Assembly (NCBI GenBank): GCA_018817385.1
Contig: JAHIUA010000098.1
Span: 1 to 64,000, forward strand
Reading direction: 5' to 3'
Source: Pseudomonadota bacterium
GTDB lineage: Bacteria > Desulfobacterota > Desulfobulbia > Desulfobulbales > Desulfocapsaceae
Length of the DNA stretch: 64,000 bases
The stretch's first letter is position 1, and every line of letters begins with the position of its first letter. The position numbers and the translations under genes were made by a program. Below the pieces are notes generated by a model. It was not told where the DNA came from and did no database searches. It saw only the letters and a list, made by a program, of their open reading frames with translations. Below, piece after piece: positions 1,253-45,793 of the stretch.

Positions 1253-3637
1253 CTATGACCATGCAGTTGAGAGGGCCGCTAATGCGTAGGCGGCGCAGGC
1301 CATGAGCATGACAGCTGAAAAACCGAGTTCGACGGCGACAATGGTGGCCAGGCCGGTGCTTACCACTGAGACACAGCCGTTAATACCCCAGGCCCAGGCG
1401 GCCTGGCTTTTGCTGTGATTGGCCAGTTGGCTCAGGCCGAGGGGGAAGGGCATGCCCATGGCCAGGCCCGGTGGGGCAATAAGGAGGAGAAAAAAGAGGG
1501 TCTTCCACATTGGCGGCAGGGTGATGGCCAGTTGTAACAAGGGCGGCAGGATAAAGAAGTAGAGAAGGAGGAGCAGGGCCACCAGCGCCGCCGCCTGGCC
1601 ATGGTTTGCAGGGCGGGGCAGGGAATGGCCGGAAAGAAGGCTGCCCAGGCCGGAAAAAATAAGCAGTCCGCTTATTCCTGCGGCAGCGGCAAAGATGGGG
1701 TGACCGAAGAAGAGGACCAACTTGTGGATCAGCATGATCTCAAAAAACATGTAGCCAAGTCCCAGGCCGCCGAAAAAGGGAATGGTCCATCTTTGCAGTC
1801 CGCTGCGTCCGGGCAGGCCAAGGCGGAGGAGGGGAAGGAGGATGAGGAGGACAGCTGCCAGGGTGATCTGGCAGAAACTGACCAGGACAATGAGATAGCC
1901 CAGCTCCAGAAAGGGCAGGGCTCGTTCACCGAAGAGTTGGAGGAGATGGGCGAGGGACTGCCAGCGGAGAAACTGGGAAAAGAAGGGATGGTTGTCGCTG
2001 ACCGGAGCCAGATTGAAAGGATAGCTGCTGGAGAGTTCACTGCGGCTGGCCGGCGAAAAGAGGCTGTCGAGATTGGCCAAAAAATGTGGATCAGCAGGAG
2101 CGTGGGAGCGTATCCGTTCCTGGGCCTGCAGGCCAGGCAGGAGGGTCGGGTCAAACTGCAGGCGCTGACAAAAGCTGCGGACCGCGGTGATGTCGTCGTT
2201 GCTGAGTGGTGAACGTTTGAGGATAAAGGTGATCATATTCCAGCCGCGTACTGCGGCCACATGCTGGTGCGCGTCCACACCTACCTCTTCCAGCGTCTCG
2301 GCAAGGGTGGCTGCCAGGCGCAGGGAGTTGCGGGCAGGAGAGTCCAGCCAGGCTGAAACCTGCAATACGCCATCAGGGGATAGGTGGCGCCATAGTTCGA
2401 GGAAGGCCTCCCGGGTCAGGAGATACTCCTCTTGGAGGGCAAAGAGGCCGGAGGCACCGCCAAAGCTGCCCACAGTGGGCAGGGTGATCAAGTCATAGGC
2501 TTGCCGGTGCAGGGCAAGCCAGGTTCGAGGGGTCAGCGAGGAACGCTGGACCAGGCGATGGTCCAGGGGGGTGGTTGGAGGATGAAGGTCAGTGCTGATC
2601 GCTGTTGCCTGTTGCTGTGGCTCCACGGCCATGATCTCTTGCGCCCCGTTCTCCAGGGCCAGGATGATATCTGTACCTGTTCCGGCCTGGAGGACAAGCA
2701 CCCGATCTCGTTTAGCCATGGCATAGGGCAGGGCGGTTAAGGTTGCCTGGAGAAAGGATGCTTGGCCGCTGCTCACTGCTCCGAACCAGTCGCCATTGGT
2801 GAAAACAGCCCCCCTGACTGTCGGCACCTCCTGTTCATAGGTCAGGCTGAGTCCGGGGGCGTAACGCAGGGCCGGGGCCGTTACCAGCTCTATCAGGCCA
2901 TAGGGGCTGGGCTGGCTGGCGGCAATTTTACTGCCGGGGAGATCCAGGGTGCGGCTGATGTCTTTATACTGTGAAGGCCGGATGGGGGGAGGCTGGAAGA
3001 GTACGGCTGTAATAACCGCCAGGGTGAGAGCTGCCAAAACAAGGAGGGGCATACGTCTGGGGCGGGCTATGACAAGGATGCCGGCAGCCCATGGCAGGAG
3101 GGCGGTCAGGGCGGGGAGCTGTTGCGGCAGGAGGAAATACATGAGGGCAACCGCGCCGAGACCGCCGATGCCGGAACCCATCAGGTTGGCGCAGTAGAGA
3201 CTGTTGATCCGATGGCTGAGGCCGATAAAGACCAGGCCCAGAGGCAGGGCGCCAAGGAAGAAAACCAGCAGGTAAATACTCTGGCTCAGGAGGAGCAGGG
3301 GCGTCTGGCCTGCTTCGACAAAGAGCAGGCAGACATCAAAACGACTGCTTATCCCCTGGGAGAGGGGCAGGGCCAGGGCCATGGTGATGGCGCAGGCAAA
3401 CATCAAAACAGGCAGCAGCCACTCCATATGGCGGAGGAGGCTGCTGCGATAGAGGGCGATAAGGGTGCCGCTGGCGCCAAAACCGAGCAGGGCAACTGAA
3501 ATGATCAGGTAGGCAAAATGATGCCACTGGATAAGGGCCAGGAGCTGCATCTGCTCCAGCTGAAAAGCGATCAGGGCGGCGGAGAGGAGGATGAGGGCCA
3601 GATGAAGTTGCAGGGGGGGGAGGGGAGCCCGTTTCAC
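1253..3637 (-). CDS. Membrane-embedded spermidine synthase-like protein
   Basis: The 794-residue protein has many membrane segments in its N-terminal third (about residues 10-210). A soluble middle region follows (about 290-480) with the arrangement of a class I methyltransferase or spermidine-synthase fold: VLVLQAGTGTDIILALENGA, then a MAVEP acid-ending strand. A second membrane block (about 600-794) ends the protein. This three-part layout is that of membrane fused SpeE-like proteins, which are widespread and mostly uncharacterised. The glycine motif is slightly degenerate (QAGTGTD rather than GxGxG), so true aminopropyltransferase activity is not assured. Its start overlaps the stop of the upstream pcm by four bases (ATGA, 3634-3637), so the two are probably translated together. 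Substrate and role are not predictable from sequence. Confidence 0.8.
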   Translation of the reverse strand: MKRAPLPPLQLHLALILLSAALIAFQLEQMQLLALIQWHHFAYLIISVALLGFGASGTLIALYRSSLLRHMEWLLPVLMFACAITMALALPLSQGISSRFDVCLLFVEAGQTPLLLLSQSIYLLVFFLGALPLGLVFIGLSHRINSLYCANLMGSGIGGLGAVALMYFLLPQQLPALTALLPWAAGILVIARPRRMPLLVLAALTLAVITAVLFQPPPIRPSQYKDISRTLDLPGSKIAASQPSPYGLIELVTAPALRYAPGLSLTYEQEVPTVRGAVFTNGDWFGAVSSGQASFLQATLTALPYAMAKRDRVLVLQAGTGTDIILALENGAQEIMAVEPQQQATAISTDLHPPTTPLDHRLVQRSSLTPRTWLALHRQAYDLITLPTVGSFGGASGLFALQEEYLLTREAFLELWRHLSPDGVLQVSAWLDSPARNSLRLAATLAETLEEVGVDAHQHVAAVRGWNMITFILKRSPLSNDDITAVRSFCQRLQFDPTLLPGLQAQERIRSHAPADPHFLANLDSLFSPASRSELSSSYPFNLAPVSDNHPFFSQFLRWQSLAHLLQLFGERALPFLELGYLIVLVSFCQITLAAVLLILLPLLRLGLPGRSGLQRWTIPFFGGLGLGYMFFEIMLIHKLVLFFGHPIFAAAAGISGLLIFSGLGSLLSGHSLPRPANHGQAAALVALLLLLYFFILPPLLQLAITLPPMWKTLFFLLLIAPPGLAMGMPFPLGLSQLANHSKSQAAWAWGINGCVSVVSTGLATIVAVELGFSAVMLMACAAYALAALSTAWS

Positions 3638-18704: not shown

Positions 18705-21587
18705 ATGAATTCCGATTCCAACTCCCGGTCGTTACGTTCTGTTGGGAATGAAGAAACGCTCCTGCAACTCATCGGGCAATTGATGGATGAGTTGCATCCA
18801 GATAAGCACCTCTCCCAGCCTCTTAGTCTGGATAGCTCACTGGATCGTGATCTGGGCCTTGACAGCCTGGCCAGGGTAGAGCTTTTTGCCCGCCTTGAAC
18901 AGAGATTTGATCTTTCCCTGTCCGAACAGTTACTGGCAACGGTGGAGAGTCCGAGAGACCTGCTGAGACATCTGGGAACATCGGAAAGGACAACTTTGGT
19001 TCAACAGGCCAGGCAAACCGTTTTGCCTGATGCTGAAGACGAAACCGATCTGGCACCTTATGCAGCAGATACGCTCCTGGCAGTACTTGACAGTCATGTC
19101 CAGTCCAGTCCGGATCGAATTCATCTCATCCTTGAACGGCATGCTGAGGAGGCAATACAGCTTAGCTATGCAGATCTCAAAACAGGTGCTCTGAAGCTGG
19201 CTGCCGGGCTGCAGCACCATAATCTGGAAGCGGGCAATACCGTTGCCATCATGCTGCCCACCGGAGTGGACTATTTTTTCAGTTTTTGGGCGGTCCTGCT
19301 CGCCGGGGGGATTCCAGTCCCCCTCTATCCTCCGGCGCGGCCGACTCAGATTGAAGAACATCTGAGGAGGCACCGGGGGATTTTAGAGAATGCCGGGGCC
19401 AAAATCCTGATCACCATGGCCGAGGTCAAACCAATTGCCAGACTGTTGCGGGCCCAGGTGGAGACCCTGGAGCAGGTTGATACTGTGGATGCATTTTCCG
19501 GGCAAGCCCAGGAGTTTATTCCCATACCTGTATCTGGAGGTGATATTGCCTTTATCCAGTACACCTCCGGTTCCACCGGTGACCCCAAGGGGGTGGTCCT
19601 CAGCCATGCCAATCTGCTGGCCAATATCCGGGCCATGGGCCAGGCAACTGCGGTCACAGCTGCTGATGTCTTTGTCAGCTGGCTGCCGCTGTATCACGAT
19701 ATGGGATTGATCGGGGCATGGCTGGGAAGTCTCTACTACGGCTGCCGTCTTGTTATCATGCAGCCCCTCTCTTTTCTTGCCAGGCCGGAGCGTTGGTTGT
19801 GGGCCATCCACAACTATCGGGGGACCCTGTCGGCCTCCCCCAATTTTGGCTATGAATTCTGTTGCCGACGACTGAACGATGACGTATTGCAAGGGCTTGA
19901 TCTCAGTTCCTGGCGTCTGGCCTTCAACGGTGCGGAGCCGGTCAGTCCGGAGACGATAATAAGCTTTGGCAAGCGCTTTACCCCCTATGGCTTTCGTCCT
20001 GAAGCCGCCGCTCCGGTCTACGGCCTTGCCGAGTCCTCGGTTGGTCTTGCCTTTCCACCGCTTGGGCGGGAGCCTGTAATCGATCGGGTCAAGCGTGCTC
20101 CCCTCGTCGAATCCGGCCGGGCAGTGGTGGCGGCAGCAGACGATGACAACGCTCTTCGTTTCGTGGCCTGTGGTCGGCCCCTGCCAGGTCACCAGATCAG
20201 GATCGTTGACGAGAGTGGCAGAGAGTTGCCTGATCGCCACCAGGGCGAGCTGCAGTTCAAGGGGCCATCGGTCACCAGCGGTTACTTTCACAATCTGGAG
20301 AAGAGTCGCAGTCTGTTTCGGGGCGAGTGGCTGGATTCCGGTGATCTTGCCTATATTGCCGAAGGTGACGTCTTCATTACCAGTCGGATCAAGGATATTA
20401 TCATTCGCGGCGGCAGGAATCTGTATCCCCACGAACTGGAAGAGGCGGTGGGCAACGTTGTGGGTATTCGTAAGGGCTGTGTTGCCGTGTTTGCCAGTCA
20501 GGACCGGGATTCCGGTACCGAACGTCTGATTGTGCTGGCGGAATCGAGGTTAAAGGACAGGGAAGCGAAAGAACAGCTGCATCAGCAGATTATCAATACG
20601 GCAGTCGACCTCTTAGGGATGCCGCCGGATGAGGTGGTGCTCGCTCCACCAGGGACGGTGCTGAAGACTTCAAGTGGCAAGATCAGACGGGCAGCCAGCC
20701 GAGAACTCTATGAAAGAGGGGAAATCGGTAAGGGAAAACGGCCGTTGTGGCTGCAGCTTGTTCGCCTCTCCCTTGCCGCCATTGTGCCGCAGATTCGGAG
20801 GCTGCTGCGTCAGGCAGGAGCGTCTCTCTATGCCTCCTTCTGCTGGCTGTTGTTTGTTCTCATCGGACTGTCGCTCTGGCTGCTTGTTGCCGTGTTGCCC
20901 TCCGTCAACTTACGCTGGTGGTTTGTCCGCCGGGCCCTGCGTTTACTGGCCTTCCTGTCAGGGACGACGATGACCATACGCGGTCTTGCTCATATTGCCG
21001 GCAAGCAACCGATGATTCTGACCTCTAATCACGCCAGTTATCTGGACAGCCTTGTCCTTGCTGCTGTTCTCCCTGTTACCTGTAACTTTGTGGCAAAGGC
21101 TGAGCTGGCAGAAAATTTTTTCTCTCGAGTGATGCTGTCTCGTCTGGAGGTGATCTTTGTTGAGCGCTTCGATGTGAGAAAAGGGCTGGAAGGTGCGCGC
21201 AGGATTGGTCGCCAAGCGGTTTCAGGGAAGCGACCACTATTCTTTGCCGAGGGAACTCTGCAGCGCATGACCGGTCTGCTGCCCTTTCAGATGGGCGCCT
21301 TTGTCACTGCGGCTCAGTCTGGAATTCCTGTGATTCCGGTGACGATCCGGGGGACTCGAAACAAGCTCCGCGGCGGGACCTGGTTTCCTCGCAAAGGCGC
21401 GGTCACTGTTATTATAGGCAAACCAGTTCTGGCCACGGGAAGCGATTGGAATGCTGCTGTTACCCTGCGTGACAAGGTACGTGCAGAGATACTGCATCAC
21501 TGCGGTGAGCCTGATTTGGCGGGTGTGTACAGCTCGCTTTCGCAGATGGAAATTAAACGACCTGATTTATCGAAGAGGGAGGAGTGA
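18705..21587 (+). CDS. ACP / acyl-AMP ligase / PlsC acyltransferase fusion
   Basis: The protein has 960 residues in three domains. An acyl carrier domain (about 15-95) has the phosphopantetheine site Ser54 in LGLDSLARVE. An AMP-forming acyl ligase (about 110-670) has YTSGSTGDPKGV at 286-297, the core region VYGLAESSVG and the C-terminal GTVLKTSSGKIRR with its catalytic lysine. A PlsC/LPLAT domain (about 750-940) follows, preceded by a hydrophobic segment, with NHASYLD (His776, Asp781) and FFAEGT. The protein could activate a fatty acid, load it on its own ACP and transfer it to a lyso-lipid acceptor at the membrane. This cycle is inferred from domain order and has not been demonstrated. It overlaps the next gene by four bases. 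Confidence 0.93.
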   Translation: MNSDSNSRSLRSVGNEETLLQLIGQLMDELHPDKHLSQPLSLDSSLDRDLGLDSLARVELFARLEQRFDLSLSEQLLATVESPRDLLRHLGTSERTTLVQQARQTVLPDAEDETDLAPYAADTLLAVLDSHVQSSPDRIHLILERHAEEAIQLSYADLKTGALKLAAGLQHHNLEAGNTVAIMLPTGVDYFFSFWAVLLAGGIPVPLYPPARPTQIEEHLRRHRGILENAGAKILITMAEVKPIARLLRAQVETLEQVDTVDAFSGQAQEFIPIPVSGGDIAFIQYTSGSTGDPKGVVLSHANLLANIRAMGQATAVTAADVFVSWLPLYHDMGLIGAWLGSLYYGCRLVIMQPLSFLARPERWLWAIHNYRGTLSASPNFGYEFCCRRLNDDVLQGLDLSSWRLAFNGAEPVSPETIISFGKRFTPYGFRPEAAAPVYGLAESSVGLAFPPLGREPVIDRVKRAPLVESGRAVVAAADDDNALRFVACGRPLPGHQIRIVDESGRELPDRHQGELQFKGPSVTSGYFHNLEKSRSLFRGEWLDSGDLAYIAEGDVFITSRIKDIIIRGGRNLYPHELEEAVGNVVGIRKGCVAVFASQDRDSGTERLIVLAESRLKDREAKEQLHQQIINTAVDLLGMPPDEVVLAPPGTVLKTSSGKIRRAASRELYERGEIGKGKRPLWLQLVRLSLAAIVPQIRRLLRQAGASLYASFCWLLFVLIGLSLWLLVAVLPSVNLRWWFVRRALRLLAFLSGTTMTIRGLAHIAGKQPMILTSNHASYLDSLVLAAVLPVTCNFVAKAELAENFFSRVMLSRLEVIFVERFDVRKGLEGARRIGRQAVSGKRPLFFAEGTLQRMTGLLPFQMGAFVTAAQSGIPVIPVTIRGTRNKLRGGTWFPRKGAVTVIIGKPVLATGSDWNAAVTLRDKVRAEILHHCGEPDLAGVYSSLSQMEIKRPDLSKREE

Positions 21588-26300: not shown

Positions 26301-27353
26301 CTATTCGACTATGATTCCTGCAGCCTCACTCGTGGTTTCTCCAATTTTTACAGCAGAGCCTATTCCTGAATCGTGAAGCACCTGAAGGAGAGCATCTGCT
26401 TCAGCATTGGGTAGAGACAGCAGCAGTCCCCCTGACGTCTGAGGATCATAAAGCATTTCCTCTTCCGCTTTATGCAGAACAATTCGCATTTCAAGATTGC
26501 CTTTTGCCACCATTGCCCTGTTGGCTTTATTACTGCCGGTGGATTCTCCCTTCCGATACATATCAAGGGCATGAGGATAGAAAGGAATGCTGCGCTGATT
26601 GAGTATCACCTGCACATTGCTGCCGTGGGCGACCTCCTGAAGATGACCAAGGATTCCGAAGCCGGTGATATCGGTGCAGGCATGGAGGTTAAATTGGAGG
26701 GCTGCTTCCATGGCAGGGCCATTCAAGGCCGCGATACTGGGGAGAATATCACGTTCCAGTTCCGCATAGGGAAGTCTTCCGGAACGGACTGCATTGAAGA
26801 GGACACCTGAACCTATGGGTTTTGTGAGGATCAGGGCGTCGCCGGGTCGTGAGCCGGCATTGGTGATGATACGATCCGGATGGACAATTCCGTTCACGCA
26901 AAGCCCATATTTCGGTTCTTCGTCGTCGACTGTATGTCCGCCCACAAGAGAGGCTCCCGCTTCGACTGTTTTATCGTGCCCGCCTCGCAGAATCTCCCGT
27001 AATATGCCCATATCCAATTTTTTGGCAGGAAACATGACCACATTAAGGGCCGTTAAGGGTCTTCCTCCCATGGAATAAACATCAGATATGGAATTAGCCG
27101 CTGCTATCTGACCAAACCAGTAGGGGTCATCCACAGGTGGAGTGATGAAATCAACGGTGTTAATCATGGCTATGTCATCTGAGAGACGATAGACGGCCGC
27201 ATCGTCAGAGGTTTCTATGCCAACAAGGAGATTGACATCAGATGGGGCTGCAAGCCCGGCAAGCGCGTCCGACAGATCCGTCGGACCAATTTTGGCAGCT
27301 CAGCCGCAGGTGCGGGCCAATCCGGTCAAGGTCTTTTTTTTGAAAATGTGCAT
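26301..27353 (-). CDS. selD: Selenide, water dikinase, itself a selenoprotein (Sec18)
   Basis: The protein has 350 residues if the UGA at 27300-27302 is read as selenocysteine. SelD makes selenophosphate from selenide and ATP for Sec-tRNA synthesis. The true N-terminus, from ATG 27353 behind AAAGGAG, reads MHIFKKKTLTGLARTCGU followed by AAKIGP. This is the family's catalytic G-(C/U)-x-x-K loop with Sec18 and Lys21. Further motifs are ETSDDAAVYRL, DPYWFGQIAAANSISDVYSM, GGHTVDDEEPKYG and YDPQTSGGLLLS. A strong hairpin with a GGA loop follows the UGA. A start downstream of the UGA would delete the catalytic loop and is wrong. A 21-bp inverted repeat lies just upstream. Confidence 0.96.
27267..27286 (-). 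promoter_or_regulatory. SECIS-like hairpin of selD
   Basis: On the minus strand GUCCGAC pairs perfectly with GUCGGAC (27280-27286 with 27267-27273) around the six-base loop GGAUCU. The loop starts 20 bases after the Sec codon. The position, the stem and the GGA at the start of the loop match the grdA and grdB hairpins. Confidence 0.75.
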
Positions 27354-27369
27354 AATATGCTCCTTTGTT

Positions 27370-27416
27370 ATGGGAAACACGAGATGATCAAAGGCTGATC
27401 ATCTCGTGTTTCCCAT
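27370..27416. promoter_or_regulatory. Perfect 21-bp inverted repeat upstream of selD
   Basis: Arms at 27370-27390 and 27396-27416 are exact reverse complements around a five-base spacer. The arm begins ATGGGAAACACGAG. The near arm ends 17 bases before the selD start codon, just upstream of its AAAGGAG site. No U-run follows on either strand, so a simple terminator is unlikely; an operator or a leader RNA hairpin controlling selD is more likely. Confidence 0.6.
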
Positions 27417-30935: not shown

Positions 30936-31040
30936 AAACAGTTTTTATCCATCTTATTGTTATCTTGCCAGTCCCTGATTTGAGCGTTGGCCCATTTGCT
31001 CTGCATACCAGTTGTGGCAGATCTGTTTTCAGTTACTGGC

Positions 31041-32363
31041 TTAAAAGACCCTCTGTTGGTCAATGGGTGTGGCCAAGGCCTTGAGTGTCTTTTGGACCAG
31101 TTCTTTTCTCAGCTTTTTTTCTTCCTCTGGGCTCTTGGTCGGGTCGCCAAAGGGATGGGGAATGGCAATGGTGGCAACAATGCGGTTGGCACCCACTGTC
31201 CTCGAGATAGGGACGATTGAACAGGCGTGAACAACTGCTATTCCTGCCAGTTCGATTTGTTTGCTCATCGTTGCTCCGCAACGAGTACAGGTCCCTCAGG
31301 TGGAGGTGAGGATGACCGCCTGAACACCGTCGGCGAGCAGGAGTTTTGCAATCTCACGACCATATTCCTCGGCATTGGCAACCGATGTTCCATTGCCCAC
31401 CGTGGCATAGTAGAAGTCGTGGAGACTGGCAAAGGCCCCCTCTGACTCCAGTTCACGCACTGCATCCAGGGGCAGTATCCGGTTCGGGTCGGCATTGGCA
31501 AAGGTCGGATCATAGCCGCCATGGGCGGTCTGGTGTGTTTCGCTGCTGAACCGTAAGAGCCCTTTCAGGGAATAGATGCCAAAGCGGCTGGCGCTGGCGG
31601 CTTCGATCCTGTCCGGATTGCCGCGGGGGACTATGCCGCCGGAAGTCACCAGGGCCAACCTGGCCCTGGCCATATCATGGATAGGGGGAGCGGGTTGGAC
31701 CCGGTCAAAGACTGGCATGAGGTATTCGGTATTAAATGCTTGGCCTCCTAATTTCAGTAGCAACATATCACAGGCACGGGTCGCCCCAGTTTTTTCGGCA
31801 AAATAATTCTTCCGCCGCCCATGGGGGATGTAGTTATGGCGATCCGGAAACAATTCTTCCCCGTTGAACTGTTTGATTGCCAGAAGTGCCATCCTCTGCA
31901 CCGCCTCTTTCATCGCCATGACATCCTTGCCGGCTCTGGCAATGAGGACATCTTTCCTGTACACTGCAACTGCTGGATTTCTAGGATACATGGCGGTTAA
32001 AGCAGGAATTGAAAACCTCTCCTGCACTGCCTGGCATATGGCGCCGCAAGCGATACCGTAACGCCCGGCATTAAAGGCCGGGCCGGCCAGGAGGAAATGG
32101 ATTTTGTCTGCGCCTTCAGCCGTAAGGCTGGGGCTGAGGAGGGCGAGGATTTCCTGGAGGGCAGTTTCTGTCTTTTCGGCCAGGTAATTGTCACCAACCA
32201 CCAGGGTGGCTGCGACCTCCATATGGGGAAACAATTTTTCAAGTAAAAGGCCGGGGCCTCTTGGGCCCTCAAGAAGTTGTGGCGGCTGGTAAGCCTTATC
32301 TTCCCCCCCCAGGCCGGCAAAAAACTGGTTCAGCGAGTATACAACTCTATATTGGGATGCCAT
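31041..32363 (-). CDS. grdB: Glycine reductase selenoprotein B (UGA = Sec356)
   Basis: The protein has 440 residues when the UGA at 31296-31298 is read as selenocysteine. GrdB is the substrate-binding selenoprotein that activates the amine together with the pyruvoyl-bearing GrdE products. Family blocks are SLNQFFAGLGGEDKA at the N-terminus, ALVTSGGIVPRGNPDRIE, TAHGGYDPTFANADPNRILP and the Sec site AVILTSTUGTCTRCGA. After the Sec, VVHACSIVPISRTVGANRIV and TIAIPHPFGDP continue the family to the C-terminus. A hairpin with a GGA loop follows the UGA. Which amine is bound (glycine, sarcosine, betaine or another) is not determined. The gene starts two bases after the grdE stop. Confidence 0.95.
31268..31284 (-). 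promoter_or_regulatory. SECIS-like hairpin of grdB
   Basis: On the minus strand UCGUUGC (31284 to 31278) pairs with GCAACGA (31274 to 31268) around the loop GGA. The loop begins 18 bases past the Sec codon, the same distance as in grdA. The short loop opens to CGGAG if the closing pair breathes. Confidence 0.7.
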
Positions 32364-37770: not shown

Positions 37771-37893
37771 ATGGGGATTTTTTAAGAGAACGGAGTCTGG
37801 GAGAGGGGGCGGAAATAGACAAGGTCTGGGGAGGGGGAAAACCTGTAACAGCCTGAATATGTGAACAACAGAATAGATAAGGAGGGTGAGAGT

Positions 37894-38913
37894 ATGCATG
37901 AGGCAATGTTCTACCAAGCCAGCAAAGAAGAGGAGCTTATCTGCGGACTGTGCAACCACCATTGTCGTATCAAGGCGGGAGGGCGTGGCATCTGTGGGGT
38001 GCGGGAAAATCGGAATGGGAGGCTGTACAGTCTGGTATATGGCCGCTTGGTTTCGGAACACATTGATCCCATTGAGAAAAAACCGATGTTTCAATTTCTC
38101 CCCGGCAGCCGCTCCTATTCCATAGCAACAGTGGGCTGCAATTTTCGTTGTCTGCACTGTCAGAACTACGATATCTCCCAATATCCCCACCTCTACGGCG
38201 GAGACATAACCGGCAGGGAGCGGACACCGGAGGCAGTGGTTGAGGCGGCGCTGCAAGCAGATTGCGCAAGTATCAGCTACACCTATGTGGAGCCGACAAT
38301 CTTTTATGAATTTGCCTATGCCTGCGCGGAATTGGCCCATGCCCAGAAGCTGAAAAATGTCTTTGTCAGCAACGGCTACATGGCCCCGGAAGTGACGCGT
38401 CATGTGGCCCCGGTTCTTGATGGTATCAATATCGATATCAAGTCCTTTCGTGGTGATTTCTATAAAAAAATATGCAAGGCCAGGCTGCAGCCGGTACTGG
38501 ATAATGTTCAACTCATGCACAATCTCGGGGTATGGGTTGAGATAACCACCCTGATCATTCCCGGCCTCAATGATTCAGAGGATGAGCTGCGTGATGTAGC
38601 CAGGTTCGTCAAGGGGGTTGATCCGGCGATCCCCTGGCATGTGACTGCCTTTTATCCCACCTATAAGATGACCGATCGCAAGCCCACCCCCGTGGAAACC
38701 CTGCGCAGGGCAAGGGATATAGGTCTTGAAGAGGGATTGCGTTTTGTCTATGAAGGGAATAGACCCGGTGAGGGGGGGGAAAATACCTACTGTCCCTCCT
38801 GCGGCACGGAACTGATCAGCCGATTGGGTTTCAGTATTCAACAGAACAGGGTAATCGACGGCTGCTGCAGCGACTGCGGCCAGAAGATAGAGGGTGTGTG
38901 GAGTGTTGGTTAG
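37894..38913 (+). CDS. amrS: AmrS, AmmeMemoRadiSam-system radical SAM enzyme
   Basis: The protein has 339 residues from the ATG at 37894, chosen because GGAGG stands about nine bases upstream. It matches the AmmeMemoRadiSam radical SAM family (PflA-like). The radical SAM cysteines are in GCNFRCLHCQNYDISQ. An N-terminal zinc-like cluster (ICGLCNHHCRIKAGGRGICG) and C-terminal CPSCGTELI...CCSDCGQKI cysteines flank it. The enzyme's substrate is unknown. The usual companions AmrA (AMMECR1) and AmrB (Memo-like) are not encoded nearby. Confidence 0.9.
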   Translation: MHEAMFYQASKEEELICGLCNHHCRIKAGGRGICGVRENRNGRLYSLVYGRLVSEHIDPIEKKPMFQFLPGSRSYSIATVGCNFRCLHCQNYDISQYPHLYGGDITGRERTPEAVVEAALQADCASISYTYVEPTIFYEFAYACAELAHAQKLKNVFVSNGYMAPEVTRHVAPVLDGINIDIKSFRGDFYKKICKARLQPVLDNVQLMHNLGVWVEITTLIIPGLNDSEDELRDVARFVKGVDPAIPWHVTAFYPTYKMTDRKPTPVETLRRARDIGLEEGLRFVYEGNRPGEGGENTYCPSCGTELISRLGFSIQQNRVIDGCCSDCGQKIEGVWSVG

Positions 38914-39199
38914 TTCTCTGAAACTTTGAATTTGTCTGACCTCATTGCGGGCTGGACTCCTTGGCAAGGATGATCTCTTTACTACCTAAAAAATTCTTTT
39001 CGTGTTTTTTTGAAAAGAATTTCCTGAAGGTACTTTCAGCCCTCAAGGGGATACTGTACTGAGTGCCGGCTTACCGTTCATCACCGGTTTCAATCGCCTT
39101 TATCGGGATATGCTTTTCTGGAGAGAGTGACTGTATCGTGGATGCGTGCCGGATGCAGTGGGGAGGATAAGGTAAAACGCGCAAGCCAGGAGGGAAAGG
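38914..39199. other. Intergenic region with AT-rich hairpin
   Basis: A perfect 11-bp dyad (AAATTCTTTTC/GAAAAGAATTT) lies at 38991-39001/39012-39022 around a T-rich loop, following amrS. It is too AT-rich for a confident terminator call. Confidence 0.35.
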
Positions 39200-40603
39200 G
39201 TGCTTATCATCAGTAAGGTTGCGGTGTTTCTCCTCTGGATCAACTTTCTTCCCCCCCTGGCCAGGATCATCTGGGGCGAGCGTTTTAAAAGACCTGTTGA
39301 CGGTGGCGGCTTGTGGTTTGATCACCATCCGATATTCGGGGATCATAAAACGATTCGCGGTGTCCTGGTCAGTCTCCTGGGAGGTATGGCAGTCTCCCCA
39401 TTGTTTGCTGTGGACGTCCGAATTGGGGCTGCAGCAGCCTTGCTGGCCATGGCTGGAGATCTGCTGTCCAGTTTTATCAAACGTCGCTTACACATGCCCT
39501 GTGGCAAAAATGTCTTCATCTTGGACCAGATCTTCGAATCGCTGTTTCCAGCCCTCTTGCTGAGGCAAAGCCTCCAGTTGACCTGGGTGCAGATTCTGGT
39601 AATCCTCTTCTGTTTTATCCTTATTGCCTATCTGGGTTCTTTTCTCTGGGCCTTTATTATATTCCGTCCATCCGAGAAAAATAATCCACGCCTGATCCGT
39701 TCAACGGTTCGGTTGCGTGAGTGGCGGGCCTGTCATACGCCGCTGGTTCGCTGGCAGACCTTACTTAACCTGAGCAGTTTTCTGGCCTATGAGGTACTCT
39801 ACTTCTGGTTCTTTAAACTGACCGGTCTCCAGGAGAAGGGCCTGCGGAATGCCTTGAATGTACGGGTGGTGGAACAAACATTTTATTTCCCGGATCTGCC
39901 GCCCTCTTTTGATGGCTTTCGTATCCTCCTCCTCACCGATCTTCACCTGGACGGGCTGCCAGATTTGACCACCGAAATTGTCCGGCAGGTTCGGGAGATG
40001 GAGGTGGATCTCTGTCTTGTGGGTGGTGATATCCGGATGAAGACCTACGGTCCCATGGCCAGCTGTCTCCGCCAGTTACGCTGCCTTTTACCTCATGTGT
40101 ACTCACGGCATGGCATCTTCGGGGTATTGGGTAATCATGACTGTATTGAAATGGCAGTCGATATGGAAGAGAGCGGTTTGACCATGCTCATCAACGATTC
40201 CTGGGAAATCAGGTGCAATGGTGAGAGCCTATGGGTGGTTGGGGTCGATGATCCCCATTATTACAGGGTGGATGATGCAGAGCGTGCCTTTCGGGGCGTC
40301 CCGGAACAGAGTTTTAAGATCTTTCTGGCCCATTCCCCTGAGGCATATAAGAAGGCAGTCGCTTTTCGCCCCCAGCTCTATCTCTGTGGTCACACCCATG
40401 GCGGCCAGATCTGCCTGCCGGGCAGGGGGCCGATCTTCACCAACAGCAGGGCTCCACGCTTTACCGCCGTGGGTTGTTGGCAGTATAAGGGAATGACAGG
40501 CTATACAAGCTGTGGCGCCGGGGCCTCAGGAGTGCCGTTGCGATTCAATTGCCCGGGCGAAATCAGCCTCATCCGCCTGCACAGGGGGACAGCATCATCT
40601 TGA
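39200..40603 (+). CDS. CarS-like CDP-lipid synthase fused to metallophosphoesterase
   Basis: The protein has 467 residues from a GTG at 39200 behind AGGAGGG. Residues about 1-150 are a membrane domain of the CarS (CDP-archaeol synthase, DUF46) type, with GDHKTIRGVLVSLLGG, MAGDLLSSFIKRRL and ILDQIFESL matching conserved blocks of that CTP-transferase-like family. Another hydrophobic segment (about 195-210) precedes a calcineurin-like phosphoesterase (about 230-460) of the membrane YkuE type, with LLTDLHLDG, VGGDIR, GVLGNHDC and GHTHGGQICLPG as metal ligands. YkuE-type enzymes hydrolyse UDP-diacylglucosamine. The two activities would meet on a nucleotide-linked lipid, but the reaction is unknown. 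Confidence 0.85.
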   Translation: MLIISKVAVFLLWINFLPPLARIIWGERFKRPVDGGGLWFDHHPIFGDHKTIRGVLVSLLGGMAVSPLFAVDVRIGAAAALLAMAGDLLSSFIKRRLHMPCGKNVFILDQIFESLFPALLLRQSLQLTWVQILVILFCFILIAYLGSFLWAFIIFRPSEKNNPRLIRSTVRLREWRACHTPLVRWQTLLNLSSFLAYEVLYFWFFKLTGLQEKGLRNALNVRVVEQTFYFPDLPPSFDGFRILLLTDLHLDGLPDLTTEIVRQVREMEVDLCLVGGDIRMKTYGPMASCLRQLRCLLPHVYSRHGIFGVLGNHDCIEMAVDMEESGLTMLINDSWEIRCNGESLWVVGVDDPHYYRVDDAERAFRGVPEQSFKIFLAHSPEAYKKAVAFRPQLYLCGHTHGGQICLPGRGPIFTNSRAPRFTAVGCWQYKGMTGYTSCGAGASGVPLRFNCPGEISLIRLHRGTASS

Positions 40604-40699: not shown

Positions 40700-42358
40700 A
40701 TGAAATTAGCCCTGATTGCTACGCCCCATACCCATCCAACATGTCCACCCCTGGGACCGGCTGTTCTCTCCGCCTACCTGCAAAAAACATTGCCGACGGT
40801 CACTGTTTCCGTCTTTGATCTCAGTCTCGAGTACTATCTGAGCAGTTTTGGCAAAATTAAGGAAGGGACTCTGGGCATCCGTCTCTATAACTGGGACGAA
40901 AAGACCACTGCCCATCATCTTGAGCAGGCGATCTCTTTTCTCAAGAACTGGCAGCCCAAAAGTCATCCAGACTTGAAGGAATACCATTACCGAGCCACGA
41001 TTTTTTTAACCTTTGAAAATATTTTTAACGCTTTTATGGCGGAAATGGCAGAAAAGGCCCTGCTTGGTCAAAGTATTCCCCCCAAAATAGAGTCTTTTTT
41101 TGCAGGTCTGATCCAACCGGTGCTGGCAGTTGGGCCCGATCTGATAGGCTTTTCCATACTGTATCAGCAGCAGGTCGTTTTTGCCGCCCTGCTTGCCCAA
41201 ATGATCAAAAAACGAAGCGATGTGAAAATTGTGGTGGGAGGCGCAAATATCAGCGTTATGGTTGCCCCGGAGACACTGCTTACCACCCCGCTTCTCTCGG
41301 CAAAAGCGGATACTCCGCAAATCTTTTGTAAGGACTTTTTTGATTACCTGATACCGGGTGAAGGGGAATTGGGGCTCTCTCATCTCTGCCAGGCCGAAGA
41401 TGTTGCTGATCTGGCCACTGTGCCCAACCTGATCTATTTCAGGAAGGATGAGCTGCAAATCAATCCCCCAGCCCTGGTTGAAATCGATACCCTTCCCTAT
41501 CCTGATTTTTCCCATTTTAAGCTCGATGCATATCTGACCCCTGAGCCGGTGCTGCCGCTGATGACCTCACGTGGCTGTCCCTGGGGGAAATGCACCTTCT
41601 GCACCCACCACCACACCTCCCTCCGTTACCGTACGCGCAGGATTGAAGCGTGTGTGGCGGAGATCAAATTCCTGCAAAGCCAATATGGCTCCAGCCTTTT
41701 TTATTTTTATGACGAGATGATTCCGCCCCAGCGTTTTAAGAAGCTGGCCGGGCAGATCATTGAGGCAGGACTTGTCATTCACTATGGCGCATATGCCAAA
41801 CCAGTCAAACAATTTGACATCAGCCTCTGCAGGCTGATTCAAAGTTCAGGTTGCCGGGTCCTGCAGTGGGGGGTGGAGTCGGCCAGCCAACGGATACTTA
41901 CTCTGATGAGTAAGGGAACAGATATCCATGTGGTCAAGGACGTTCTTGGCAACTCCACTCGGGCCGGGATAAATAATCTGGTTTTTATTCTTTTCGGGTT
42001 TCCCTCAGAAACAGAAGAAGAATTGCAGCAAACCCTGACTTTTATCGATTGCAACAGAGAAAATATCCAGGCCCTGAGTGCCGGGACATTTGTCCTGACT
42101 GAGGGATCACAGATTCACAGGGAACCGGAAAAGTTTTTCATCAGCCGGATTGGGGAAAAGAATAAAACATCAATTCTCCATTCTGCCCTGGAGTATGATA
42201 TCAGTCAGGGAATGACGGTTAAAGAAGTCTGGCAACATTTCAATGATAACCAGAAATTTTTTGGCAAGATCCCCCTCTCACGTCGCTTTGGAACCTACCG
42301 CGAACACCTGCTTATTTATGGAGCAAGCCAGAGCGGCAGGGAGGGACAAGAACGATAG
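40700..42358 (+). CDS. B12-binding-domain radical SAM protein
   Basis: The protein has 552 residues. An N-terminal cobalamin-binding-like region (about 1-230; PPLGPAVLSAYLQK, IGFSILYQQQ, KIVVGGANIS) precedes the radical SAM domain with SRGCPWGKCTFCTHHH (near 296). The cysteine spacing is CX4CX2C rather than CX3CX2C. The region VLQWGVESASQRIL and the C-terminal FGFPSETEEEL are typical of the family. The function cannot be named; relatives modify peptides, lipids or cofactors. It follows the CarS fusion by 96 bases on the same strand. Confidence 0.85.
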   Translation: MKLALIATPHTHPTCPPLGPAVLSAYLQKTLPTVTVSVFDLSLEYYLSSFGKIKEGTLGIRLYNWDEKTTAHHLEQAISFLKNWQPKSHPDLKEYHYRATIFLTFENIFNAFMAEMAEKALLGQSIPPKIESFFAGLIQPVLAVGPDLIGFSILYQQQVVFAALLAQMIKKRSDVKIVVGGANISVMVAPETLLTTPLLSAKADTPQIFCKDFFDYLIPGEGELGLSHLCQAEDVADLATVPNLIYFRKDELQINPPALVEIDTLPYPDFSHFKLDAYLTPEPVLPLMTSRGCPWGKCTFCTHHHTSLRYRTRRIEACVAEIKFLQSQYGSSLFYFYDEMIPPQRFKKLAGQIIEAGLVIHYGAYAKPVKQFDISLCRLIQSSGCRVLQWGVESASQRILTLMSKGTDIHVVKDVLGNSTRAGINNLVFILFGFPSETEEELQQTLTFIDCNRENIQALSAGTFVLTEGSQIHREPEKFFISRIGEKNKTSILHSALEYDISQGMTVKEVWQHFNDNQKFFGKIPLSRRFGTYREHLLIYGASQSGREGQER

Positions 42359-44203: not shown

Positions 44204-44764
44204 TTACTTGATCTCAATCTGTTTTATTTTAGACTGTGGCACTGCATTACGTGGCAGGGTAATTGTGAGAATACCATTTTTGAAATTTGCTTTGACTGCA
44301 TCCTGATCAGCATCTTCAGGCAGTGACAGGATTCTTTGAAATGAGCCGTACGAGCGTTCTATTCGATAATAGTCTTTTTGTTTTTCTTCGTGCTCCTGTT
44401 TCTTTTCACCCCTGATCGTCAGGATATTGTTGCTGATCTCCAGTGTGATGTCTTTTTGATCTATGCCGGGGACTTCAACACTGATTGCATATTCTTTTTC
44501 TGTGGCTCCTATGTCCAGTGTCGGTTTGAAAAGCCCATCGGTCAGGGAATCGGTAAAGAACTTTTCTGTTCCGAAGCCACGTTGCTCAAATCCTTTCAGG
44601 AAGTTGTTAAACAGTTGTTCCATTTCCTGTTGTATCTGGCCCACGGGACTGTATGAGGGGCGTCGTGGCTGTATTTGGCCGGGGCGATTAATCGGCAGGG
44701 CAGTATCCGTTTCTTTTTCCTCTTCTTTGAACCAGTTCCATGGGGCCAATTTTTTCAGATCCAT
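44204..44764 (-). CDS. Hsp20-family small heat shock protein
   Basis: The protein has 186 residues from the ATG at 44764, chosen because GGAGA stands eight bases upstream; a TTG five codons earlier overlaps that site. A long N-terminal arm (about 1-75; PWNWFKEEEKETD, GQIQQEMEQLFNNFLKGF) precedes the alpha-crystallin domain, with ATEKEYAISVEVPGIDQKDI and GILTITLPRN. It binds unfolding proteins without ATP. It is the third of three hsp20 paralogues here. Confidence 0.93.
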   Translation of the reverse strand: MDLKKLAPWNWFKEEEKETDTALPINRPGQIQPRRPSYSPVGQIQQEMEQLFNNFLKGFEQRGFGTEKFFTDSLTDGLFKPTLDIGATEKEYAISVEVPGIDQKDITLEISNNILTIRGEKKQEHEEKQKDYYRIERSYGSFQRILSLPEDADQDAVKANFKNGILTITLPRNAVPQSKIKQIEIK

Positions 44765-44922
44765 AAGGTGTTTCTCCAACTCTCATTGTTGTAAAAAGAA
44801 GCGGTAAGATGTCAAGAGCTGATCTTTCGCCTCTTTGCTTCCCTTTTCTGTGAGGATTACCTTCCTTGCGTCACTCTCCTGCAGCACTCTATGCAAAGAA
44901 TTGAGGGTGCTATCATGAGGCC

Positions 44923-45303
44923 TTAATGGATTTCAATCTGCCGGGGTTTGGAGGCCTCTGACTTTGGCAGATGCAGCGTGAGTACGCCGTCCTTCAGTTC
45001 AGCATTGACCTTTTCCACATCAATTGTCTGATGCACAGAAAAGATTCTCCGGTATTCCACATCGCCAAACTCTTCCCGGGTTGCAGTTCCCGATGGGGGG
45101 AGCCTTCGTACTCCGCTAATCAGTAACTCTCCATTATCAATGTTGACGGTGATATCTTCTTTGGCCACCCCCGGCATGTCGGCATAGAGGAGCATTTCAT
45201 CGTCGTTTTCAAAAATATCAACCACAGGTGCAATGACAGGGATTTCCCGACTGCGTTCCGGGACGGTTTTTTCTTTTGTGGTAATATTTGTTGTTTCACT
45301 CAT
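44923..45303 (-). CDS. Hsp20-family small heat shock protein
   Basis: The protein has 126 residues, the shortest of the three paralogues. It lacks an extended N-terminal arm and consists mainly of an alpha-crystallin domain: VVDIFENDDEMLLYADMPGV, GELLISGVR, then GVLTLHLPKSEA. The short arm suggests it forms smaller oligomers or joins those of the neighbouring paralogues. It lies 43 bases after the 45347-45793 gene. Confidence 0.93.
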   Translation of the reverse strand: MSETTNITTKEKTVPERSREIPVIAPVVDIFENDDEMLLYADMPGVAKEDITVNIDNGELLISGVRRLPPSGTATREEFGDVEYRRIFSVHQTIDVEKVNAELKDGVLTLHLPKSEASKPRQIEIH

Positions 45304-45346
45304 GGCTCAACCTCCGTCAGTAACTATCTGAATATGTAAAAAACAG

Positions 45347-45793
45347 TTATGCTATGGAAACCTGTTTGGGCTTGGCAGCTTCAGCCTTCGGTAAGGTGAG
45401 AGAGAGGATGCCATTTTGTAAGGAGGCATCGATTTTATCCACATTCACCTCAGAGGGCAGAGTAAAACTGCGGGTAAATGAAGCTGTTTCCCGTTCGGTT
45501 CGATGAACCTTATAGCCTTCCGGGGCGTCTGATTTGCGAGTACCACTCACTTCAAGATAATTGCCCTGGATCTGGATGGTGAGATCCTCCTTGCTCATGC
45601 CGGGAACCTCAGCTTTAAGTTCAAGCTGATTGCCATTGTCATAAAAATTGGTTCGTGGGCTCCCGTCAGTGGCTGACCAGCCAGGGCTCCGTCCATAAAA
45701 TCTGTTGTCATCTGTGGTTAATCTGTTGAGTCGAGAGCGAAGTAAATCCATGGCCCCAAACATCCGGTCAATGTCACTTGTTCGTGTCCACAT
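45347..45793 (-). CDS. Hsp20-family small heat shock protein
   Basis: The protein has 148 residues, the usual Hsp20 size. The N-terminus MWTRTSDIDRMFGAMDLLRS is followed by the alpha-crystallin domain with NQLELKAEVPGMSKEDLTI and GILSLTLPKAEAAKPKQVSI. It is the first gene of the hsp20-hsp20-hsp20-degP series, preceded by GAGGAG. A heat-shock promoter or a CIRCE element was not recognised upstream. Confidence 0.94.
   Translation of the reverse strand: MWTRTSDIDRMFGAMDLLRSRLNRLTTDDNRFYGRSPGWSATDGSPRTNFYDNGNQLELKAEVPGMSKEDLTIQIQGNYLEVSGTRKSDAPEGYKVHRTERETASFTRSFTLPSEVNVDKIDASLQNGILSLTLPKAEAAKPKQVSIA

Follow-up and report, generated by a model that had tools for sequence, protein, structure and literature searches.

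A CarS-like CTP-transferase domain fused to a metallophosphoesterase in Desulfobacterota: a candidate enzyme of an accessory CDP-lipid pathway

In a DNA stretch of 64,000 nucleotides (the window, by which we mean the whole stretch analysed) we identified a gene that joins a CarS-like CTP-transferase domain to a metallophosphoesterase (MPE) domain. Nearly all the CarS copies that we examined have a phosphoesterase as companion, either fused to the domain or encoded by a paired gene. Our preferred reading, held with a confidence just short of even, is that the fusion is a bifunctional enzyme of the inner membrane and belongs to an accessory CDP-lipid pathway. It combines a known CTP-transferase family with a known phosphoesterase family; the fusion itself and its pathway setting are new as far as the open-access literature shows. 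Among the matches listed from 5.39 million open-access PMC texts, a collection that leaves most subscription journals outside, there was no report of a CarS-phosphoesterase fusion. An earlier note on this DNA, made from the sequence, had described bacterial CarS-like proteins as poorly understood, and as far as the matches listed in the literature show, they do look little studied.

RESULTS

Domain composition of the fusion protein

The features of the window that bear on the fusion are compiled in Table 1. The earlier note had seen CarS/DUF46 motifs and a full set of metallophosphoesterase motifs in one frame of 467 residues, and both Pfam matches and motif residues kept in 55/55 aligned members confirm this. 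The CarS-like family PF01864 (formerly DUF46) matches residues 9-151 (41.5 bits, E 1.9e-10, cut-off 22), so the DUF46 similarity expected within residues 1-150 is present. Metallophos (PF00149) matches residues 240-401 with 36.8 bits (E 7.2e-9, cut-off 21.5). Both families match all 12 of the aligned members scanned, the window's included (E up to 0.01).

Table 1. Coordinates of the fusion gene, its parts and selected other genes of the window
Feature	Position	Strand	Remarks
CarS-MPE fusion gene	39200..40603	+	single intact frame, 467 aa; GTG start at 39200, stop at 40603
AGGAGG ribosome-binding site	39188..39193	+	6 bases 5' of GTG; read from sequence
CarS-like CTP-transferase domain (residues 9-151)	39224..39652	+	profile, fold, alignment
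Linker (residues 156-235), positively charged	39665..39904	+	alignment, AlphaFold2 model
MPE domain (residues ~236-462)	39905..40585	+	profile, fold, alignment
CDP-alcohol phosphatidyltransferase, 183 aa	30384..30935	-	CDP-alcohol motif intact; subfamily elsewhere adjoining fusion
ACP + AMP-ligase + acyltransferase protein	18705..21587	+	possible lipid partner; homologue adjoins fusion in locus L037 (weak link)
Radical SAM gene, AmmeMemoRadiSam type	37861-38913		next to fusion in window
Radical SAM gene, B12-type	40700-42358		next to fusion in window

When a 12-member profile was compared with known structures, Aeropyrum CarS (ApCarS, 5guf) was the only PDB match (E 3.6e-16, with E up to 0.01 considered). 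Against the NCBIfam equivalog for CarS, CDP-archaeol synthase (NF003114), the fusion scores 66.7 bits, below the cut-off of 148. The best NCBIfam scores of the MPE half, YaeI (80.1 bits) and LpxG (61.4 bits), are likewise below the respective cut-offs of 188 and 350.

Conserved motifs and structural model

The CTP-site motifs GxxKTxxG, GDxxxSFxKRR and DxxxE are kept in all 55 aligned members. Residues G47, K50, T51, G54, D87, S91, K94, R95, R96, D109 and E113 are invariant throughout, the window's protein included, and D34 (54/55) as well as D41 and Q110 (53/55 each) are nearly so. The LDQLD of ApCarS corresponds to DQxxE in the bacterial clade, and the 12 unfused proteins checked also have DQxxE. 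In TmCdsA the metal-binding aspartates are Asp219 and Asp249, according to PMC7018664; going by the motif, D87 and D109 probably occupy the positions expected for the two metal-binding aspartates of CdsA. The MPE half has the features of calcineurin-like metallophosphoesterases (DxH, GD, GNHD, H and GHxH, together with the PF00149 match), and its motif residues D247, H249, D277, N312, H313, H378, H398 and H400 are invariant in 55/55. Judged by residue conservation, both catalytic sites of the fusion look active. Conservation extends into the linker, with R171 present in 55/55 aligned members and W175, R176, C178 and H179 in 53-54 of the 55.

The AlphaFold2 model of the fusion, built with 55 sequences, has a mean pLDDT of 82.3 and a pTM of 0.63, with pLDDT below 50 in the linker. 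Residues 1-149 of the model superpose on 5guf (Z 16.9, rmsd 2.2 A, 143 aligned residues), and residues 235-465 match MPE folds (Mre11, Z 16.6). Neither LpxG nor LpxH is among the 50 VIA-align matches listed for the model; Foldseek matches it to LpxH (7ss7) with an E of 7.7e-5.

The N-terminal domain consists of five helices and is rich in Lys/Arg in loops 26-51 and 97-107 and at the start of the linker. The five-helix count puts the linker start and the catalytic loops on the same side, and we favour a cytoplasmic MPE. A further hydrophobic helix (residues ~191-209) follows the linker motif. Its mean Kyte-Doolittle value is 0.89, compared with 0.83-1.67 for helices 1-5, and it has 3.2 polar residues on average; it may be an interfacial helix or a borderline sixth transmembrane crossing. 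The twin-arginine motif is not conserved, RR being present within residues 151-200 in 2 of the 55 aligned rows. The phosphoesterase had been called 'YkuE-type' in the earlier note. At the family level this holds broadly, but the best scores go to YaeI and LpxG and the twin-arginine motif is unconserved.

Distribution and phylogeny

The search for the same fusion in other genomes, which the earlier note had proposed as a check, was successful. Fusions, either full-length or cut at a contig end, are present in 13 of the 56 relative genomes, own included. At the level of the order (Desulfobulbales, judged from named relatives), 64 hits were obtained in 193 genomes; leaving out the weak one in G194 (28 bits), 63 genomes carry the fusion domain; the open frame has 394 residues or more in 60 and fewer in three (G067, G122 and G152). 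In a scan of named genomes we considered the best 80 of 546 relatives. Matches start from residue 21 or earlier in 77 of these, and the remaining three loci (L028, L089 and L094) are cut at contig ends. The fusion is neither a chance frame nor an assembly join, given its presence in the 13 relative genomes and in these 77 loci. Of the 80 named loci, the ORF filter recovered it in 73, and in 63 of these both flanks extend for 1 kb or more.

The best 80 named loci come mainly from Desulfobulbales, with some from other Desulfobacterota and seven from MAGs labelled Gammaproteobacteria (Thioalkalivibrio, Thiohalocapsa, Thiotrichales and others). Binning errors are possible because most fusion records are MAGs, but the fusion is also present in isolates such as Desulfopila aestuarii, Desulfogranum japonicum and Desulfosediminicola flagellatus. 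In a scan of 395 genomes of the phylum, the CarS model scored at least 137 bits in 39, of which 24 have fusion-sized frames (at least 446 aa) and 15 have an unfused protein. At this score none of the 395 genomes has both forms together.

The phylogenetic tree excluded four fused rows cut at contig ends and included 12 of the 15 unfused rows. The 12 unfused rows are split from the 77 fused rows by a branch with 100/100 support, the root being the midpoint only. The 70 fused rows that are not gammaproteobacterial share a branch supported at 97/91. The seven gammaproteobacterial rows, which as a group were set against the unfused rows alone, fall outside it.

Association with a CDP-alcohol phosphatidyltransferase

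Neighbour clustering revealed a CDP-alcohol phosphatidyltransferase in 21 of the 73 named fusion loci. In 20 loci it lies within 200 bp of the fusion on the same strand (13 upstream, 7 downstream); in the window it is 8.3 kb away on the opposite strand. The five proteins scanned match PF01066 with 64.8-82 bits (cut-off 22). The transferase represents a distinct subfamily: its own model scores at least 204 bits in 40 of the order's 193 genomes, followed by 73 as the next-highest score. A second, PgsA-like transferase in the window's own genome scores 58 bits.

Thirty of the 40 transferase genomes also have the fusion; the Fisher test, uncorrected for kinship, gives an odds ratio of 10.9 and p 6e-10. 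Both genes are on one contig in 22 of these 30 genomes, and in 19 they are on the same strand within 1.7 kb. The association is partial on either side, as 33 of the 63 fusion genomes of the order are without the special transferase and 10 of the 40 transferase genomes are without the fusion. Outside the order, the subfamily was absent from all 33 carrier genomes searched (18 fused, 15 unfused). A search of 16 genomes gave no CarS-like match in the 10 transferase genomes without the fusion. Neighbourhoods were inspected in nine of these 10, and the transferase locus of G101, which has no fusion, retains SppA/Gate-type neighbours found elsewhere. To judge from the tree, the transferase-fusion pairing looks to have been re-made more than once, because the fusion loci holding the transferase fall in several branches.

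Unfused CarS relatives

Each of the 15 unfused CarS loci has a gene for a PHP-type phosphoesterase downstream, in the same orientation; the distance is at most about 135 bp in 14 loci and 1.5 kb in one. These loci were covered completely by tblastn, the ORF filter having called 12 of the 15. The Pfam PHP family gives 29.8 bits for the L154 protein, over its cut-off of 26.4, and 20.8 bits for that of L160, under it; PHP_C is over the cut-off in both. Thus, the CarS domain is paired with a phosphoesterase on both sides of the tree, each time of a different fold, and we read this as a shared functional need.

Other neighbours of the unfused genes are related to the envelope. An MsbA-type gene immediately precedes CarS in six of the 15 loci; that of L149 scores 514 bits, short of the equivalog cut-off of 602. 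An LptD gene follows PHP in six loci, within 250 bp in five and at 2.6 kb in one (L150: PF04453, 93.7 bits, cut-off 22.4). Neither the L154 PHP nor the L150 LptD protein, used as a query with E up to 1e-5, matched anything in the window or the 80 fusion loci. The MsbA query gave seven ABC-transporter stretches in the same loci and window; they show 25-38% identity, and the one closest to the fusion is about 1.3 kb away.

Housekeeping lipid enzymes and archaeal lipids

The window's own genome codes for CdsA, PgpA and LpxI. Within the order, CdsA is present in 188 of the 193 genomes (61 of the 63 fusion carriers), PgpA in 174 (59 of 63) and LpxI in 184 (59 of 63); LpxI was also found in 32 of 33 further carriers. 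We therefore rejected the idea that the fusion replaces any of the three. With CdsA and PgpA already encoded in the own genome, a CDP-lipid pathway involving the fusion would be an additional one. The presence of LpxI in the own genome and in most genomes of the order makes a UDP-lipid (LpxG-type) role disfavoured; the fusion scores below the LpxG cut-off, and the lipid A step is already filled by LpxI. The earlier suggestion of a combined synthase and hydrolase acting on a CDP- or UDP-linked lipid is partly borne out, in that both motif sets are intact in one protein, but its UDP-lipid alternative loses ground. As a separate observation, the open frames that contain LpxI span 614-696 residues in 15 genomes belonging to families f49, f82 and f101, compared with 272-371 residues in the other genomes listed, which suggests an LpxI fusion protein.

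GGGP synthase (PF01884) was absent from all 32 genomes searched, which include the own genome and 23 carriers (15 fused, 8 unfused). The same search gave matches in seven of 14 control genomes, five of them over the cut-off. CDP-archaeol is an unlikely product of the fusion, because the synthase is missing from all 32 genomes while the controls respond. On the other hand, an acyl substrate is not to be assumed for bacterial CarS, because the characterised archaeal enzyme discriminates against phosphatidate in favour of its isoprenoid lipid and fails to complement an E. coli cdsA mutant (PMC9385802).

Other genes of the window and of related loci

A conserved partnership of the fusion with the two radical SAM genes adjoining it in the window was unsupported, as neither is in the 40 largest neighbour clusters. 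A different radical SAM protein (cluster 4, 12 loci) stands beside the fusion in at least 10 loci, and in L066, L069, L076 and L081 it ends seven positions upstream of the fusion frame. Locus L014 has an unfused MPE (1354-2304, plus strand; 43% identity to the MPE half of the fusion) and no CarS; by eye, two glycosyltransferase-like genes flank it.

Several further genes of the window were noted, all on the minus strand. At 31020-32363, a glycine-reductase-like frame, which we take to be of the GrdB type, has an in-frame UGA at residue 356 and continues beyond it until a UAA/UAG stop at position 441; the gene likely codes for a selenoprotein. In a selenophosphate-synthetase-like gene (26301-27401) the frame can be followed further upstream across a UGA, residue 34 of the stretch; presumably this is SelD, with the UGA where such enzymes have Sec or Cys. 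The 161-aa protein at 37023-37508 matches NMD3 (PF04981, 27.4 bits, above the cut-off of 24.9), a family known from eukaryotes and archaea. Three related small genes in a row (44204-45793) form one neighbour cluster, are small-heat-shock-protein-like by eye and adjoin a trypsin/PDZ protease gene.

DISCUSSION

Proposed role and alternatives

According to the reading that we prefer, the five-helix domain, whose fold and motifs are observed, would transfer CMP from CTP onto a lipid phosphate to give a CDP-lipid. The substrate is probably an acyl- or alkyl-glycerol phosphate and less likely an archaeal isoprenoid lipid. In part of the lineage, the dedicated CDP-alcohol phosphatidyltransferase would then replace CMP by a head group; the genes are observed together, and the reaction is the one expected of the family. 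Members without the special transferase would rely on a housekeeping one. The fused MPE would cut a phosphoester in the same short pathway, which is the step of which we are least sure. Its target would most likely be the terminal phosphate of a phospho-head-group product, comparable to the action of PGP phosphatase on PGP. Against this reading stand the partial association with the transferase, its distance from the fusion in the window, the lipid selectivity of archaeal CarS and the unfused relatives, whose msbA and lptD neighbours point to LPS export and not to phospholipid head groups.

The same neighbours would fit an explanation that we consider unlikely but deserving of attention, namely that CarS and phosphoesterase make or remodel an outer-membrane lipid (LPS or a pyrophosphate-linked glycolipid) and that the MPE resembles LpxG and LpxH in cleaving a nucleotide-diphospho- or pyrophosphoryl-lipid. 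The scores of the MPE half to LpxG agree with this in kind, yet 61 bits is far from the cut-off of 350, and the UDP-hydrolase step of lipid A is filled by LpxI in most genomes (184/193 and 32/33). The fusion loci and the window also yield no LptD match and, for MsbA, only the distant ABC-transporter stretches. According to PMC6362211, the glycolipid MPIase, which is made via CDP-DAG, increases in E. coli on overproduction of CdsA or of its paralogue YnbB, but it is about unchanged in the ynbB knockout. It is these data, together with the msbA and lptD neighbours, that keep the envelope-lipid alternative alive.

Other alternatives seem to us weaker still. It is improbable that the two domains form a self-limiting or futile pair, in which the MPE hydrolyses the CDP-lipid (or lipid phosphate) from the first domain and so sets the CDP-lipid level. 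Both motif sets are intact in a single chain, and the catalytic loops and linker start are on the same side by helix count, as such a pair would have it; however, the pairing with the transferase is left unexplained, and the MPE relatives act on so many substrates that nothing singles out a CDP-lipid. Dgk1 and Sec59, CTP-dependent lipid kinases, belong to the same wide superfamily as the CTP-transferase domain, and a kinase opposed by a phosphatase would make sense as a pair. Nevertheless, we hold a kinase to be very improbable, as the domain's closest solved relative, in sequence as well as in fold, is a cytidylyltransferase, and CDP-lipid-using transferases adjoin the fusion. Finally, we give hardly any credence to a true archaeal-type CDP-archaeol synthase acquired from archaea. 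The Pfam name and 5guf as the closest solved relative suggest one, but GGGP synthase is missing, DQxxE replaces LDQLD and the NCBIfam equivalog cut-off is missed by a wide interval (66.7 of 148 bits).

Returning to the accessory CDP-lipid pathway, a wider generalization is possible, though we regard it as rather doubtful. CarS-like proteins of Desulfobacterota and some sulfur-oxidising Gammaproteobacteria may define an undescribed CDP-activated lipid pathway with a CTP-transferase and a phosphoesterase at its core. Phosphoesterases of unrelated folds would have been brought in on at least two occasions, MPE through fusion and PHP through an operon. The product would be a non-archaeal envelope lipid; part of Desulfobulbales would make it with a dedicated CDP-alcohol transferase, and elsewhere MsbA/Lpt would export it. 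If true, this would be an undescribed CTP-transferase plus phosphoesterase route to a membrane lipid, with the two activities kept together differently in relatives. The role of bacterial CarS homologues becomes directly testable, as one protein is expected to carry both activities. Studies of the lipid divide could also be misled by bacterial CarS-like genes, since the profile that these match bears the name CDP-archaeol synthase.

Comparison with known systems

Archaeal CarS (PF01864; 5guf) and the fusion have the five-helix fold and the CTP-site motifs in common. In contrast to archaeal CarS, the fusion is bacterial, is joined to an MPE, has DQxxE instead of LDQLD and occurs in a genome without GGGP synthase. 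YaeI and LpxG are the closest NCBIfam families to the MPE half, which remains below their equivalog cut-offs. LpxG is membrane-associated (PMC4807358), but in most fusion genomes its step is filled by LpxI. Membrane-anchored, polytopic YkuE proteins also exist, and a twin-arginine motif has been described in the polytopic ones (PMC5449189). This Sec/Tat type has the twin arginine before the last transmembrane helix, whereas in the fusion it is unconserved.

The E. coli ynbABCD genes likewise combine a CTP-transferase paralogue, a CDP-alcohol phosphatidyltransferase and a phosphatase. YnbA is a PF01066-type transferase, YnbB is of the CdsA type (PF01148) and YnbD is a DSP with a weak PAP2 match. 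A similar trio is present in the window, with the transferase at its 8.3-kb distance, and its genes adjoin in 20 of the 73 fusion loci. The ynb genes differ in being unfused and in coding for other enzyme families; the alignment of YnbA with the window transferase is weak (21% identity, E 0.075). YnbB is dispensable in E. coli, according to PMC6362211. The CdsA-PgsA-PgpA route to phosphatidylglycerol is built of enzyme families unrelated to or distant from those of the fusion, but its order is the same as in the pathway proposed here: CTP activation, head-group transfer and phosphate removal.
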